A stretch of DNA of 35,598 nt, from the NCBI GenBank assembly GCA_020052615.1, contig JAGVOT010000086.1, positions 1 to 35,598 on the forward strand, read 5' to 3'. Position numbers and translations under genes: made by a program. The first letter of the stretch is position 1; every line of letters begins with the position of its first letter. Origin of the DNA: Nitrospirota bacterium (lineage in GTDB: Bacteria; Nitrospirota; UBA9217). Below the pieces are notes generated by a model. It ran no database searches. It worked only from the letters and a program-made list of their open reading frames with translations, and was not told the DNA's origin. Positions 6,383-13,689 of this stretch are shown piece by piece.

Positions 6383-7789
6383 ATGAAAGAATACGACATC
6401 GTCATCATCGGCTCCGGCGCGGGAGCGAACCTGATCGGGGACGCGCTGGCCCAAAACAGGACCGTGGCGCTCGTGGACAAGGGGCCTGTGGGCGGGACCT
6501 GCCTGAACACCGGCTGAATCCCCACGAAACTGCTCGTCTATCCGGCGGATAGGCTCATGGAGATCAGGGAAGCGGGGAGGTTCGGCATTACCGCGCAGAT
6601 CACTGCCGTGGACTTTCCGGCCATCATGGAGCGGATGCGGAAGATTGTCGCCCGGAGCCACGACCGCATGAAAGATGCCCTGGAGAAGGCCGAGGACTTC
6701 GATTTCTACGGCGGGGAGGCGCGGTTCACCGGGGACCACACCCTGGAGGTGAACGGGAAGACCGTCAAGGGCAGGGACATTTTCATCGTTGCCGGCGTGC
6801 GTCCGATGGTGCCCGCCATCAGGGGGATCGAGAGCGTCGAGTACCTGACGAACGAGAGCGCCCTCAGGCTTACGGAACTGCCCGGCAGCATGGTCGTCAT
6901 CGGCGGGGGATATATCTCCGCGGAGTTTGCCCACTTCTTCGAGGCCATGGGCACGAACGTGACGATCATCCAGCGGAACAAGCGGCTTGTGCCGGACGAG
7001 GAACCCGAAGTGTCGGAGCTGCTCAGGACCGCGCTTTCACGGCGCATGCAGATCCATGTGGATACGGAGGTGACCGAGGTCAAACAGACCGGTAAGATCG
7101 TCACGGTCACGGCAAAAGAACGCCACAGCGGCAAACAGCTGGAATTCACTGCAAGCCATCTGCTCGTCGCCGCGGGCAGAAGGCCGAACACCGATAATCT
7201 CATGGTCTCGAACACGGGGGTAAAAACGAACGAAAAGGGCTTCATTGTCGTGGACGAGTTCTATGAGACCTCGAAGAAGGGGATCTGGGCCTTCGGGGAC
7301 ATCATCGGCAGGAAGATGTTCCGGCACACGGCGAACCACGAAGCCGAACTGGTCTGGCACAACGCGGTCCACGGGAAAAAGTCCCGCATGAACTACCTCA
7401 CGGTGCCCCATGCCGTGTTCTCCTACCCCGAGATCGCCTCGGTGGGGCTGTCCGAGGCCGAGGCGGTGAAGCTCATGGGCAAGCAGGAGGTCCTGGTGGG
7501 AAAGGCGATGTATACCGATGTGGCGCGGGGAGAGGCGATGATGGAGACCGAGGGATTCACGAAAGCCATCGTGCACCGGAAGACCGGGAAGGTCCTGGGC
7601 TACCACATCATCGGGCCCCAGGCGTCCATTCTCATCCAGGAGGTCGTGAATGCAATGGCCGCTGACGGGAACATCTGGACCGTCGCCAAGGGCATCCACA
7701 TCCATCCGGCGCTGTCGGAAGTGGTGCTGAAGGCCTTCGGGAAGCTGGAACCGGTGGACGGCGAGCACCATCATCACCACGACCGGTAG
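6383..7789 (+). CDS. FAD pyridine-nucleotide disulfide oxidoreductase with selenocysteine in the redox centre
   Basis: Reading from the ATG at 6383 gives 468 residues of a dihydrolipoamide dehydrogenase/mercuric reductase-type flavoenzyme with one in-frame TGA at 6515-6517 (residue 45). The N-terminus has the FAD fold IIGSGAGAN, then [15 protein letters not shown]; relatives have C-x4-C, so UGA replaces the second cysteine, the one that forms the charge-transfer complex with FAD, while C40 is kept. The NAD-binding motif is [15 protein letters not shown], the second FAD motif is WAFGDIIG, and the C-terminal His-Glu catalytic pair appears in HIHPALSEV. The tail ends in five natural histidines. 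A start at the ATG at 6557 would delete the FAD fold and redox centre and is rejected. Its substrate is unknown. An all-cysteine paralogue lies at 10040-11404. Confidence 0.9.
6515..6553 (+). promoter_or_regulatory. Candidate bacterial SECIS element
   Basis: Twenty bases after the UGA (6515-6517) lies a hairpin with a perfect 6-bp stem, CTATCC (6538-6543) and GGATAG (6547-6552), loop GGC, extended by one T-G pair. The loop G residues and distance are within what bacterial SECIS elements allow, although slightly farther out than in E. coli fdhF. Folded by eye. Confidence 0.5.
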
Positions 7790-10039: not shown

Positions 10040-11404
10040 TTATCCAAGGTTGTCGAACGTTGCCGGTATGATGTTTGAAAGCGCGGGGAATATATGCATA
10101 CATCCGGTGACGGATTCAACATCAGCCTTGTGTATGATGGCATTGGCGACTTCCTGAATGAGCGTTGCAGCATGCGGGCCGATGATGTGAAAACCCAGGA
10201 TCCTCCTGGTGCCCTTCTCGACAACTGCCTTTGCGAAACCCGTGCGCTCCATCATTGCCTCTCCCATCACGGTATCGGAATATAGGGCGCGGCCCACGAG
10301 GATCTTGTGATCGTGCCGGGCCTGCCGCTCTGTCAGGCCCACGGATGCTATCTGCGGATGCGTATAGACCGCGTAGGGGACGGAGTCAAAATCCATGCTG
10401 ATCTGTTCTTTGTGCCTGGCGTTGTGCCATGCCAGTTCAGCTTCCTTGTCTCCGGCATGGGTAAACATTTTTCTACCGATGGCATCGCCAAGCGCCCAGA
10501 TGAGCTTTTTGTTCGTCCGGAGATACTTGTCAACCTTTATGAAACCGGCCTTGTCCGTCTCTATTCCGGCATTTTCCGTTTTCAGCAGGTCGGCGTTGGA
10601 TTTCCTGCCGGCATTGACCATTACGTGCGATGCAGAGATCCTTTTACTCCTTCCGGTTCCGGCATCCTTTACCACCACGGTATACCCATTGCCACCTTGT
10701 TGAATTTCCATTATCTCGACACCCATATGCAGTTCGATGCGTTTCTCCAATTCCTGTTTCAATAGCCTCGATATCTCCGGCTCACCAAAAGGCAAAAGCG
10801 CCGGGTTCCTGTCAATGAGCTTGACCTTCACACCCAGAGCAGAGAAGAAATGCGCATATTCAAGTGATATGAATCCGCCTCCGATTAAGACGATGTTGTC
10901 AGGCCTGCTTGCGAGTCCCAGGACGCTCTCGTTGGTCAGGAAAGGGGTCTTATCAAGTCCCTTGATCGGGGGGGCCAATGGCCGCGCACCGGTGGCTAGA
11001 AAAATCTGCTTGCCTCTGATCTTATGACCACCAGCTTCGAGGGTATGCTCATCGATGAAACGGGCCTCTTTGTTTATGAACTCGAGATTCCCGGACCCCT
11101 TGATCGCCTTTTTTATGGAATTTCTGCCCCTGGCGACGACCCTTCTCGTCCGCTCCATGACCGCGCTGAAGTCGACATCGATCCTTCCGGAACGGATGCC
11201 GAATTTTGTATTTTCCCGTGTTTCGATCATTCTGTCCGCAGTATAGATAAGCGTTTTAGAAGGTACACAACCGCTGTTAACGCACGTTCCGCCCGGATGT
11301 CCCTTATCGACAAGGGCAACGTTCAGACCTCCTGAAAGCGCTTTAAAGGCGACTCCCAGGCCCACGTCACCCGCGCCGACGACGATAACATCATATGCCT
11401 TCAT
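10040..11404 (-). CDS. FAD pyridine-nucleotide disulfide oxidoreductase, all-cysteine paralogue
   Basis: A 454-residue flavoenzyme of the dihydrolipoamide dehydrogenase/mercuric reductase family. It shows VVGAGDVGLG (FAD), GGTCVNSGCVPSK with redox cysteines C41 and C46, VLIGGGFISLEYAHF (NAD) and WALGDAIGRKMF (second FAD motif). It is a clear paralogue of the selenocysteine enzyme at 6383-7789. Unlike that one, its C-terminal motif reads HIFPALSNI, so the usual His and Glu of the catalytic pair are Phe and Asn; a different electron acceptor is likely. The start at 11404 has GGGGTGA upstream. It is the last gene of a minus-strand set that begins with a short peptide gene, 34 bases after the YceI gene. 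The substrate is unknown; reduction of a modified peptide or small disulfide is conceivable. Confidence 0.9.
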   Translation of the reverse strand: MKAYDVIVVGAGDVGLGVAFKALSGGLNVALVDKGHPGGTCVNSGCVPSKTLIYTADRMIETRENTKFGIRSGRIDVDFSAVMERTRRVVARGRNSIKKAIKGSGNLEFINKEARFIDEHTLEAGGHKIRGKQIFLATGARPLAPPIKGLDKTPFLTNESVLGLASRPDNIVLIGGGFISLEYAHFFSALGVKVKLIDRNPALLPFGEPEISRLLKQELEKRIELHMGVEIMEIQQGGNGYTVVVKDAGTGRSKRISASHVMVNAGRKSNADLLKTENAGIETDKAGFIKVDKYLRTNKKLIWALGDAIGRKMFTHAGDKEAELAWHNARHKEQISMDFDSVPYAVYTHPQIASVGLTERQARHDHKILVGRALYSDTVMGEAMMERTGFAKAVVEKGTRRILGFHIIGPHAATLIQEVANAIIHKADVESVTGCMHIFPALSNIIPATFDNLG

Positions 11405-11438
11405 GATCTCACCCCTTCACCGCAGCGGCAATGAACCT

Positions 11439-11972
11439 TTATCCCGTGACAAGATCAGCTTCCAGGTCTATAAAAAGCTGGACCTCCCTGCTCACCATGA
11501 TGCCGTTATTCGCCATCGGCTGGTTCCACATGATCCTATAGTCTTCACGGTTTATTATGGCTGATACTGCAAAGCCCATGCTTGATCCGTCGCCGAAGGG
11601 GTCGTTTACCGGCCCTGAAAACTCTACCGAGACGGTTATCTGACGCGTTATGCCGTGGATCGTCAGGTCGCCGCTCACTTGAGCCTGGTTGCCGTTCACT
11701 GAATGTACTCTCGTAGAGATGAATGAGATGGTGGGATATTTATCGACATCAAAGAAATCCGCGCTTTTCAAGTGCTCGTCACGTTTCAGGATTCCCGTAA
11801 ATATGCTTGAGGCGTCGATGGACAGTTCTATTGAAGAGTTGGTAATGTTCAGAGGATCAAAATAAACGGTCCCTCCAACTTTGCAGAACTGGCCCCGAAC
11901 ATTCGCGATCATCATGTGACGGACTGAAAATGCCGCTCCTGAGTGGTCAGGATCTATGATCCATTTCGTCAT
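11439..11972 (-). CDS. YceI family lipid-binding lipocalin-like protein
   Basis: A 177-residue protein of the YceI/TTHA0802 family, whose members form a beta-barrel that binds polyisoprenoids or similar lipids. It opens with WIIDPDHSGAAFSVRHMMIANVRGQF and carries the typical SADFFDVDKYPTISF and GDLTIHGITRQIT stretches. There is no signal peptide, so it is probably cytoplasmic, unlike E. coli YceI. It lies 26 bases after the radical SAM gene and 34 bases before the reductase gene, consistent with one transcript. A role in carrying a lipid or quinone for the neighbouring enzymes is possible but unproven. Confidence 0.9.
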   Translation of the reverse strand: MTKWIIDPDHSGAAFSVRHMMIANVRGQFCKVGGTVYFDPLNITNSSIELSIDASSIFTGILKRDEHLKSADFFDVDKYPTISFISTRVHSVNGNQAQVSGDLTIHGITRQITVSVEFSGPVNDPFGDGSSMGFAVSAIINREDYRIMWNQPMANNGIMVSREVQLFIDLEADLVTG

Positions 11973-11998
11973 TTCTCACATCCTTATTTATTGTTTTG

Positions 11999-13042
11999 CT
12001 AACGCAGAAAACACTGCGGATCCTCGGCCAGGTAAGTGGTCCTGCCATGAGCGTGTGCAAATTCATACGCTATCGCCCTGCAGCCCCTGCATGCCGACCA
12101 TTTGCTGCAGCTGCCGCATGTACCCTCATATAGGGACCTGTCCCTCAGCGAGGTCAAGACCTCTGATGTTGACCATATTTCCCGCAGGGAGTCTGTTCTG
12201 ACGTTTCCAAGGGAAACAGGAAGCCTTCTGCAGGGAGTGACTGTCCCGTCGGGCAGGATCGTCAGCCCCGAGACGCCTGCAGCGCATCCGCCGGATGGAA
12301 AGGAGCCGGCATCATTGTTACCCGCCGGACTTCTGAACTGTGACGCGACGGGATCACCGGTGACGATCTTCAGATTGCCGGTATTCAGTGAGAATATCCT
12401 GCCGTACAGATCTTCCAGGACCTCCTTCGTCAGCATCTTGTTCAAAAAATTTCTGCCGCTTCCCGACGGTACCAGCCTCGAAAAGCCCAGCTTCTGAACG
12501 CCCATCGAAGAGGCGAGGGCTATCACGTCGAGAAAATAGGCCGCATTTATGTCGGAAAGCGTCGTGTTCATGGTCACTTCTATTCCCGCGTCCAGGAGGC
12601 ATTGTATCCCGGAAAGGGAACGTTTCAGGCTTCCCTTGCCACGTATCGCGTCATGGATCTTCTCCGGACCCTCGATGCTTACCTGGACCCCTTTTACTTC
12701 CAATTGGGAAAGTACGTCAGCCTTATCCTTCGTGATGAGTGTCCCGTTCGACAATAGATAGACATCGAACCTTTTATCGGCAAGTTCTTCCAGTACGGAA
12801 AAAATATCCTGTCTCAGGAACGGTTCTCCGCCGGTGATATTGAAACTGGAGGAAAAGGCAACATCATAGGCCGCTGACCATTCCCCGAGCATATCAGCAA
12901 CTTCACCTATGACGCTTTGGACCTCTGCCAAGGACATCTCATCCGAGCTCTTTCCGGATTGATAGCAGTGCGTACATTTAAGGTTGCATCTTTCCGTAAG
13001 ATGCAGCTGAATGAAAAATTCCAGGGGAGTGTTTATCGACAT
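11999..13042 (-). CDS. Radical SAM enzyme with SPASM domain, probable peptide maturase
   Basis: A 347-residue radical SAM protein. The SAM-binding 4Fe-4S motif is C19-x3-C23-x2-C26 in TERCNLKCTHCYQ, followed by ITGGEPFLR. The C-terminal SPASM domain carries the ligands of two further clusters: GC...GTVTPC, then C-x2-C-x5-C-x2-C in CGSCSKWSACRGC, and DPQC near the end. SPASM radical SAM enzymes commonly modify ribosomally made peptides or enzymes. Directly upstream, on the same strand, is a short Cys/UGA-containing peptide gene, the usual arrangement of precursor and maturase. The bond it forms (for example thioether) cannot be told. I could not match it to a named maturase family; resemblance to SbtM of the proposed selenobiotic systems was considered and not supported. 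The ribosome binding site is weak (AAGAAG). Confidence 0.88.
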   Translation of the reverse strand: MSINTPLEFFIQLHLTERCNLKCTHCYQSGKSSDEMSLAEVQSVIGEVADMLGEWSAAYDVAFSSSFNITGGEPFLRQDIFSVLEELADKRFDVYLLSNGTLITKDKADVLSQLEVKGVQVSIEGPEKIHDAIRGKGSLKRSLSGIQCLLDAGIEVTMNTTLSDINAAYFLDVIALASSMGVQKLGFSRLVPSGSGRNFLNKMLTKEVLEDLYGRIFSLNTGNLKIVTGDPVASQFRSPAGNNDAGSFPSGGCAAGVSGLTILPDGTVTPCRRLPVSLGNVRTDSLREIWSTSEVLTSLRDRSLYEGTCGSCSKWSACRGCRAIAYEFAHAHGRTTYLAEDPQCFLR

Positions 13043-13111
13043 TGGCTTCTTGATGATCTGAATTCAGGATTTACAACGGACAGTATGGCCCTGCAGTAGT
13101 ATTGAAAGAAC

Positions 13112-13171
13112 AGGCAGATATGCTGATCGTGCCGATATCACCGGCAGGCATCACGCATATCTGCCTTTTTT
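13112..13171. terminator. Long hairpin between peptide gene and radical SAM gene (possible attenuator)
   Basis: AGGCAGATATGC (13112-13123) and GCATATCTGCCT (13155-13166) are perfect 12-bp arms. Inside them TGAT/ATCA and TGCCG/CGGCA can also pair, so the whole forms one long stem. On the plus strand it is followed by a T-run; in the minus-strand transcript the following bases are only U-rich. Placed between a short peptide gene and its maturase it may partly stop transcription and give more peptide than enzyme. Confidence 0.55.
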
Positions 13172-13211
13172 GGCTGCCGAACCGGCAACGTTAGCTCTTT
13201 CAGCCCTTTCA
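13172..13211 (-). promoter_or_regulatory. Possible SECIS hairpin at the end of the peptide gene
   Basis: Downstream of the second in-frame UGA (complement of 13200-13202), thirteen bases on, a GC-rich hairpin TGCCG-GTT-CGGCA forms (13175-13187). An outer helix GGCTG/CAGCC that reaches back to the UGA competes with or extends it. The loop contains GTT. This is compatible with a bacterial SECIS element, but such short hairpins are common, so support is moderate to weak. Confidence 0.35.
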
Positions 13212-13313
13212 CTTGCGGCATGTTTTCCCAGGATGGTCTTTTGCAGACTGTTTGAGATTATCCCAGAAAGCAGCCTCTTTCGAGAGATCTTTTGCCGACA
13301 ATGTCTTCTTCAT
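13191..13313 (-). CDS. Short peptide gene, possible Cys/selenocysteine RiPP precursor
   Basis: From the ATG at 13313 (first base) the frame encodes 34 residues, MKKTLSAKDLSKEAAFWDN onward, ending KTCRK before a TGA at 13211-13209. If that TGA and the next (13202-13200) are both read as selenocysteine, the peptide has 40 residues and ends HPGKTCRKUKGUKS before TAA: Cys32, Sec35 and Sec38 lie exactly three residues apart. The ribosome binding site GGAGGTGA seven bases upstream is the best in the neighbourhood, and an extended -10 promoter precedes it. It is directly followed by the radical SAM/SPASM gene, which suggests a leader peptide and a modified C-terminal core. If the first UGA is a plain stop, the product is a 34-residue peptide with a single cysteine. 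I recognise no family. Too short to be found by ordinary gene calling. Confidence 0.6.
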
Positions 13314-13371
13314 CCTTCTTTCACCTCCTTTCCGTCTATATGATCGCCCATACAGTATAGATGTTATCTTT

Positions 13372-13380
13372 ATTATAGCA
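13372..13380 (-). promoter_or_regulatory. Extended -10 promoter for the peptide/radical SAM operon
   Basis: On the minus strand TGC precedes a perfect TATAAT, an extended -10 element about 55 bases before the peptide start codon. No strong -35 box is seen. It lies in the 115-base gap after the zinc-ribbon gene. Confidence 0.55.
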
Positions 13381-13428: not shown

Positions 13429-13689
13429 TTATTCTGCATTTGGATCGGGGAGATCTTGAGCTTTCCGTTCGTTCCCTTTCTCTTCATCGCTGTAAAGGAT
13501 CCGGGATTCTCCGGTCTTTGTGTTCACCTCGACGCAATATTCTACCTCTTTCCCGTTCAGGTAGATCTTTGACCGTACGTACTTCGTCGTCTCGCATTGG
13601 GGACAGAATTCAACGTTTCCGCAATGCTGAATATCCCGTTGTTCCAGCTTGCCGCCGCATTTCTCGCACGCATTCATTTTGGTCTCCAT
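13429..13689 (-). CDS. Zinc-ribbon protein of unknown function
   Basis: An 86-residue protein with two CxxC knuckles, CEKCGG and CPQCET, spaced about 20 residues apart, so a single zinc ribbon at the N-terminus. The C-terminal half is acidic and polar. The start is either the ATG at 13689 (GGGA upstream) or the ATG four codons later (GGAG upstream); both are plausible. It lies upstream of the peptide operon on the same strand but is separated by a promoter, so it is probably its own unit. The role is unknown; such proteins often bind nucleic acid or protein partners. Confidence 0.65.
   Translation of the reverse strand: METKMNACEKCGGKLEQRDIQHCGNVEFCPQCETTKYVRSKIYLNGKEVEYCVEVNTKTGESRILYSDEEKGNERKAQDLPDPNAE

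Follow-up and report, generated by a model that had tools for sequence, protein, structure and literature searches.

A short peptide with two conserved UGA codons and a radical SAM/SPASM enzyme: a probable selenopeptide system in Nitrospirota and Desulfobacterota

We analyzed a 35,598-nucleotide (nt) stretch of DNA from a Nitrospirota bacterium (contig JAGVOT010000086.1; hereafter, the window). It carries a short peptide frame with two in-frame UGA codons, followed by a gene for a radical S-adenosylmethionine (SAM)/SPASM enzyme. A first-pass annotation, made from the DNA letters alone, had proposed that UGA is read here as selenocysteine (Sec, U) and that the peptide belongs to a new class of modified selenopeptide. 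Every feature that it described was found where it had been placed. All genes of the locus lie on the minus strand, and the coordinates below are positions in the window. SECIS stands for Sec insertion sequence.

13313-13191, minus: candidate selenopeptide gene, a 34-codon frame that continues through two UGAs, MKKTLSAKDLSKEAAFWDNLKQSAKDHPGKTCRK-U-KG-U-KS-stop (TAA)
13211-13209, minus: first in-frame UGA (UGA1, putative Sec35), from sequence and conservation
13202-13200, minus: second in-frame UGA (UGA2, putative Sec38), from sequence and conservation
13193-13191, minus: TAA stop of the peptide, after Lys-Ser, from sequence
13189-13173, minus: SECIS-like stem-loop GUUGCC-GGUUC-GGCAGC directly 3' of the peptide stop, from covariation and bacterial SECIS (bSECIS) criteria
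13042-11999, minus: radical SAM/SPASM enzyme (PF04055, PF13186), probable peptide maturase
13330-13321, minus: ribosome binding site AAGGAGGTGA, from sequence; relatives have similar sites
13380-13372, minus: possible extended -10 element (TGnTATAAT) TGCTATAAT, from sequence only
13165-13113, minus: terminator-like hairpin with arms GGCAGATATGC / GCATATCTGCC between the peptide and enzyme genes, from predicted fold
11972-11439, minus: YceI-family protein (PF04264)
11404-10040, minus: pyridine nucleotide-disulfide oxidoreductase (PF07992)

The peptide frame opens with an ATG at 13313, and its 3' end reads TCRK-TGA-AAG-GGC-TGA-AAG-AGC-TAA. Such a gene is easily missed, because gene prediction software would call only the 34 codons before UGA1. 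The closest relatives of the enzyme, which come from the same family, from other Nitrospirota and from Syntrophobacterales and Desulfobulbaceae records, had a homologous peptide encoded just upstream. The resulting family consists of peptides of about 40 residues with the C terminus C-x-K-U-x-x-U-K-S. Our first set comprised 67 loci in assemblies, many of them metagenome-assembled genomes; a 68th row, the first of L178, was excluded as a chance match. Its 61 distinct peptides gave the consensus MKKxLSKKALxKEAAFWxxLKKAxKENPGKVC[HR]K-U-K[GS]-U-KS, and in a 41-row alignment (A2) residues E13, W17, C32, K34, U35, U38 and S40 were invariant. No NCBIfam model matched the peptide even at E<=10 (with U entered as C).

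How widely does the peptide occur? With a profile built from 17 peptides and a threshold of E<1e-9, we obtained matches in 59 of the 396 Nitrospirota genomes sampled, and each match contained exactly two TGA codons. Hence, the locus is more than a chance arrangement. In a second phylum, identified as Desulfobacterota by the titles of its records, a wider profile (from alignment A2) matched 15 of 395 genomes at E<1e-6; together with G398 this makes 16. A peptide with exactly two TGAs was present in 14 further Desulfobacterota genomes. The sample for the phylum search, which started from G398, largely overlapped the earlier one. The peptide was single copy in all genomes but one. Weak second peptide matches with two TGAs in G000, G218, G369 and G017 were judged on inspection to be due to chance.

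We then considered the UGA codons themselves. Both positions were TGA in all 67 loci of the first set, while the codon that ends the frame after Lys-Ser was TGA in 32, TAA in 25 and TAG in 10. Ordinary stop codons would vary alike at all three places; we therefore take UGA1 and UGA2 to be selected, most probably as Sec codons. The sequence beyond UGA1 was also conserved as protein. The Lys-Ser or Lys-Thr after UGA2 was kept across codon families, with Ser encoded by AGC, AGT or TCG in Nitrospirota and Thr as the main alternative; the second phylum used TCG, TCC, TCT, ACG, ACT and ACC for the Ser or Thr. In the first set, the second residue between the UGAs was Gly, Ser or Ala, encoded by six codons. 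Conservation of both the UGA and the coding sequence beyond it in distant relatives, the mark of a bacterial selenoprotein gene, was thus found. The first-pass annotation had set out in advance both a check and a refutation: TGA conserved at the two positions in peptides next to relatives of the enzyme would favor Sec, and relatives that end at CRK with TAA or TAG and retain nothing beyond would refute it. The former is what we observed; TAA or TAG stood at the position of UGA1 in no relative. This pattern of conservation supports the Sec reading of both UGAs.

Perhaps the peptide instead ends at UGA1, after CRK, and the conserved frame is a downstream one (V/M-K-G-L-K-E-L) whose start codon overlaps that UGA (xTGA)? 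In eight loci (L124, L192, L196, L198, L203, L205, L206 and L208) the enzyme frame can indeed be followed upstream, without a stop, to an ATG or GTG that overlaps UGA1, and Leu and Lys recur at several positions of the alternative frame. However, a comparison of the remaining two frames across the UGA block showed that the one used by the enzyme gene in some loci lacks conservation in most. The alternative frame did not reach the enzyme gene in most loci, a stop closed it in L029, and its Leu codon was replaced by GTG or ATG in several Desulfobacterota loci. The Ser/Thr codon families, the three types of stop after Lys-Ser, and the covarying hairpin, the link to tRNA-Sec and the Cys codon at UGA1 described below all fit the peptide frame. 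We consider termination at UGA1 very improbable.

If both UGAs are decoded, a SECIS element should be found nearby. In nearly all loci a stem-loop whose apical loop contains GGU followed directly after the stop codon. The distance to it was usually 16-18 nt from UGA2 and 25-27 nt from UGA1 (16-17 and 25-26 nt in the window); spacers were longer in some loci, and L124 and L203 had an extra intervening hairpin. An alignment of 46 sequences, from which we set aside nine loci whose spacers were long or whose hairpin was indistinct, supported the helix by covariation: 42 double-change cells were observed versus 15.6 in shuffles, and the signal was lost when the helix was slid. We also applied the bSECIS criteria given in a 2026 selenoproteome review (PMC13188914): a loop of 3-9 nt with G in the first two positions, lying 16-37 nt from the UGA, on a stem of 4-16 bp with a minimum free energy <= -7.5. 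Under this strict test, both UGAs of the locus passed in 44 of the 65 distinct loci versus 1.8% of dinucleotide shuffles; as a background for a single UGA, 4.9% of the TGA triplets that the window contains passed. The apical GGU is shared with the SECIS elements of the two Sec-FdhA genes of the same genome (GUGGCC-GGUCU-GGCCAC and GGUGGCC-GGUCU-GGCCGCC, each 18 nt after the UGA). A search of Rfam returned nothing in the window, a result of little weight given how variable SECIS elements are in bacteria. The source genome also has a third molybdopterin oxidoreductase (L249), with an in-frame TGA in an FdhA-type Sec site and a different hairpin.

A single hairpin that serves two UGAs raises the question of whether only one of them is efficiently read as Sec, either UGA2, which lies at the usual SECIS distance, or UGA1, so that a single-Sec peptide or a mixture of lengths is made. 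The distance of UGA2 from the loop resembles that of this genome's FdhA SECIS elements. Genome G592, a member of the Desulfobacterota, also fits such a case: it has two paralogous peptide-enzyme pairs, L240 (CLK-TGC-KS-TGA) and L243 (CLK-TGA-KS-TAA), each of which keeps TGA at one of the two positions. The G592 peptides may have one U/C position and use the second codon as the stop. Against single decoding stand the invariance of both UGAs, the location of both within the published 16-37 nt range (PMC13188914, as given in its criteria) and the fact that UGA2 can be decoded only by reading through UGA1. Moreover, UxxU selenoprotein families are among those described in PMC13188914, so that two UGAs six bases apart, which the first-pass annotation considered unusual for SelB-dependent decoding, have precedents. 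Efficient decoding of one UGA alone seems to us distinctly unlikely.

The genomes that encode the peptide also tend to encode tRNA-Sec. The source genome has SelB, scoring above its cut-off, and two tRNA-Sec genes with the anticodon TCA, so that Sec machinery and other Sec genes were both found in it. Among the sampled Nitrospirota, tRNA-Sec was detected in 53 of 59 peptide genomes versus 125 of 337 others (Fisher 9e-15, uncorrected for relatedness), and in the second phylum it was detected in 12 of 16 peptide genomes.

We turned to the enzyme as the probable partner of the peptide. It scored above the gathering thresholds of PF04055 (75.2 bits) and of the SPASM domain PF13186 (45.4 bits), and it has a CNLKCTHC motif. 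Its best NCBIfam scores all fell far below the respective cut-offs: AhbD TIGR04545 (172.1 bits, cut-off 500), NirJ2 TIGR04055 (171.6, 500), ACGX TIGR04340 (154.6, 400) and SbtM TIGR04082 (137.6, 350). An AlphaFold2 model (mean predicted local distance difference test score, 90.6) matched SkfB best (6efn), then SuiB, PqqE, the anaerobic sulfatase maturase anSME and ChlB. These are peptide- or protein-modifying enzymes; the matches therefore favor a peptide as the substrate, yet they point to no particular reaction.

The enzyme gene lay downstream of and adjoining the peptide gene in 60 of the 67 loci. In the remaining seven (in genomes G141, G220, G269, G325, G331, G357 and G379) it was found elsewhere in the genome; the G379 contig ends at the peptide locus. 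When 118 relatives were searched, 12 had the enzyme (E<1e-115) and 11 of those, all but G004, had the peptide, while every peptide genome had the enzyme. This pairing is independent of linkage and is our chief reason for thinking that peptide and enzyme act jointly. The constant association of a short precursor with an enzyme of a peptide-modifying kind, as expected of a ribosomally synthesized and post-translationally modified peptide (RiPP), was hence found. No such peptide was seen near distant relatives of the enzyme with about 25-33% identity (L032-L102). The closest outgroup enzymes (L020-L022, 41-42% identity) scored best with the ACGX model, below its cut-off, and the enzyme gene of L022 adjoins that of a small membrane protein with GCSGC repeats at its C terminus. 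In the eight loci where the enzyme frame is open back to UGA1, termination at UGA1 might be linked to translation of the enzyme, an arrangement that could act as a switch responding to selenium.

Is the peptide a substrate at all? It could instead be a free metal or redox ligand, employed by the radical SAM enzyme to ligate a cluster or to carry electrons. C-x2-U-x2-U does resemble the well-known C-x2-C-x2-C cluster motif, and a Sec in a peptide can bind the auxiliary cluster of the enzyme PapB directly (work cited in PMC10470005). On the other hand, a precursor and its maturase are usually laid out in just this way: one SPASM enzyme is paired with a short peptide, the ribosome binding site is strong and a terminator intervenes. 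The structural matches of the enzyme are to enzymes that modify peptides. We regard the ligand explanation as unlikely.

Several observations weigh against a selenopeptide with a dedicated maturase. The Cys codon (TGC) that stands at UGA1 in L240 is a single case, and tRNA-Sec was not detected in its genome, G592. The first-pass annotation had named a Cys codon at position 35 as a sign in favor of Sec, and this one paralogue has it; an order-level search around G592 found no further Cys variants. With Cys at UGA1 in L240, TAA at UGA2 in L243 and tRNA-Sec not found, G592 could be a snapshot of Sec loss. More broadly, the search for tRNA-Sec gave no match in 10 peptide genomes. In one of these, which consists of a single contig (G313), the chromosome was read up to 1.2 Mb and carries a Sec-FdhA gene with an in-frame TGA and the same GGUCU hairpin. 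G313 hence decodes Sec, and its missing tRNA-Sec is probably a search miss, so that at least some of the 10 absences would be misses of this kind. Two loci (L025 and L190) lack the usual hairpin, and the energy threshold of the strict SECIS test excludes roughly one locus in three. Genome G004 has the enzyme, and the peptide was not detected in it. Finally, no NCBIfam model fits the enzyme, and its radical SAM reaction is predicted by no family model.

Taking these points together with the conservation, the hairpin and the pairing, we conclude that the locus probably encodes a Sec-containing ribosomal peptide and a dedicated radical SAM/SPASM enzyme, a reading to which we assign a probability of roughly 0.78. 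As judged from sequence comparisons, this unannotated peptide of many soil and groundwater bacteria is probably a new family of modified selenium peptide. We envisage the following pathway. A short and probably abundant mRNA, with a strong ribosome binding site and its own terminator, would be translated through two UGAs, a step that conservation strongly supports. SelB, acting on the single stem-loop after the stop codon, would direct Sec insertion at both UGAs and so yield the C-x-K-U-x-x-U-K-S terminus. The genomic pairing suggests that the radical SAM enzyme takes the peptide as its substrate, presumably recognizing the conserved N-terminal part (KEAAxW...). It would then modify the C-terminal Cys/Sec region, most likely by forming a thioether or selenoether link or by a related oxidation.

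What the product does is a matter of speculation. It could more readily be a housekeeping redox or metal-binding peptide or a cofactor than an antibiotic; an antibiotic is disfavored because the whole peptide, core included, has been kept across phyla, and each genome has a single copy (with the one exception). Tentatively, and with odds that we put somewhat below even, it may be a new class of selenium peptide cofactor in which the radical SAM enzyme cross-links C-x2-U-x2-U, or in which this tail serves as a metal or Fe-S ligand, with a conserved role in many anaerobic or subsurface bacteria comparable to the roles of PQQ and mycofactocin.

The other features of the locus bear less directly on this proposal. 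The extended -10 element credited to the peptide gene in the first-pass annotation is present (TGnTATAAT), but a consensus scan found no complete sigma-70 promoter there. An 8-bp perfect inverted repeat, ATGGCTGA...TCAGCCAT, at 13411-13380 lies upstream of this element and touches it; it is possibly an operator or an upstream terminator. Farther upstream, at 13429-13689 (minus strand), is a gene for an 86-residue protein with zinc-ribbon-like Cys pairs and no Pfam match. The terminator-like hairpin at 13165-13113 has a predicted fold of -34.5 kcal/mol and a T-rich tail, and many relatives have similar hairpins. The heptamer AGATATG is kept in its 5' arm; a CAGATATG-like pattern set matched in 30 of 67 loci, and the chance expectation for AGATATG alone is about 0.012 per region.

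The genes were described as following one another on the same strand with short gaps. Their strand and order are as described, and the gaps after the enzyme and YceI genes are 26 and 34 nt; however, the gap between the peptide and enzyme genes is 148 nt and holds both the SECIS-like and the terminator-like hairpins. The YceI protein is a clear family member (PF04264, 157.2 bits versus a gathering score of 23.7). A YceI gene follows in 12 of 67 loci from several families; in two of these, L188 and L191, the enzyme is encoded elsewhere and the YceI gene is the first one after the peptide. For the disulfide oxidoreductase (PF07992), the best NCBIfam model, dihydrolipoyl dehydrogenase, scored below its cut-off, and such a gene was present in 4 of 67 loci. 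At these frequencies neither gene belongs to the core; both look like accessory neighbors, and the proposal that one of their products acts on the peptide is doubtful. A related pyridine nucleotide-disulfide oxidoreductase gene at 6557-7789 (plus strand) lies less than 5 kb from the one at 10040-11404 (minus strand), on the opposite strand. In six other loci (L169, L173, L179, L180, L181 and L214), a gene for a small membrane methyltransferase (PEMT/ICMT type) comes after the enzyme gene on the same strand.

Roughly one in seven of the Nitrospirota species sampled has the peptide, which would carry two Sec residues within 40. If so, the system offers a clean test of one post-stop SECIS serving two UGAs. 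It also provides a defined pair of peptide and enzyme in which to study radical SAM selenium chemistry.

How does it compare with known systems? Double UGAs six bases apart are shared with the UxxU selenoproteins listed in PMC13188914 (FmdB-like, metal-binding and Prx-like). Those listed belong to other protein families, whereas here a 40-residue peptide has C-x2-U-x2-U near its end. The combination of C-x-K-U-x-x-U-K-S with a radical SAM enzyme was not seen in the consulted passages of the table in that review, nor is a description known from the open-access literature searched. The heme biosynthesis radical SAM enzymes AhbD and NirJ2 gave the best NCBIfam scores, but both have cut-offs of 500, and the constant genomic partner of our enzyme is the candidate selenopeptide. 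SkfB, a thioether-forming SPASM maturase, is the best match in sequence and fold among solved structures (6efn), at about 25% identity; its substrate is not a selenopeptide, and a thioether is only our suggestion for the present enzyme. PapB makes selenoethers (work cited in PMC10470005). ACGX enzymes are similar in size and domain layout, but the window peptide has no ACGX repeat.

The nearest precedent is SbtA/SbtM (TIGR04081/TIGR04082), a thio(seleno)oxazole RiPP (Lewis et al. 2021, as reported in PMC13188914 and PMC11002830); thio(seleno)oxazoles are named as the SbtM product in PMC11002830. There, too, a short Sec precursor adjoins a radical SAM/SPASM gene, and a SECIS follows the UGA. 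Could our peptide belong to that system or to ACGX? The enzyme does score with TIGR04340 and TIGR04082, but at 154.6 and 137.6 bits, far below the cut-offs of 400 and 350, and it has 347 amino acids versus 516 model positions for SbtM. The peptide has no NCBIfam match, and its C-x-K-U-x-x-U-K-S differs from SGUG, the TIGR04081 motif given in PMC13188914. Membership in either system is extremely improbable, in keeping with the initial impression that peptide and enzyme do not look like SbtA/SbtM. Here, moreover, one SECIS, after the stop codon, would serve two UGAs. SbtA/SbtM was the sole Sec RiPP seen in the consulted passages of PMC13188914 (2026); if our reading is correct, the present system would be a second kind, unrelated to the first by motif and family model.

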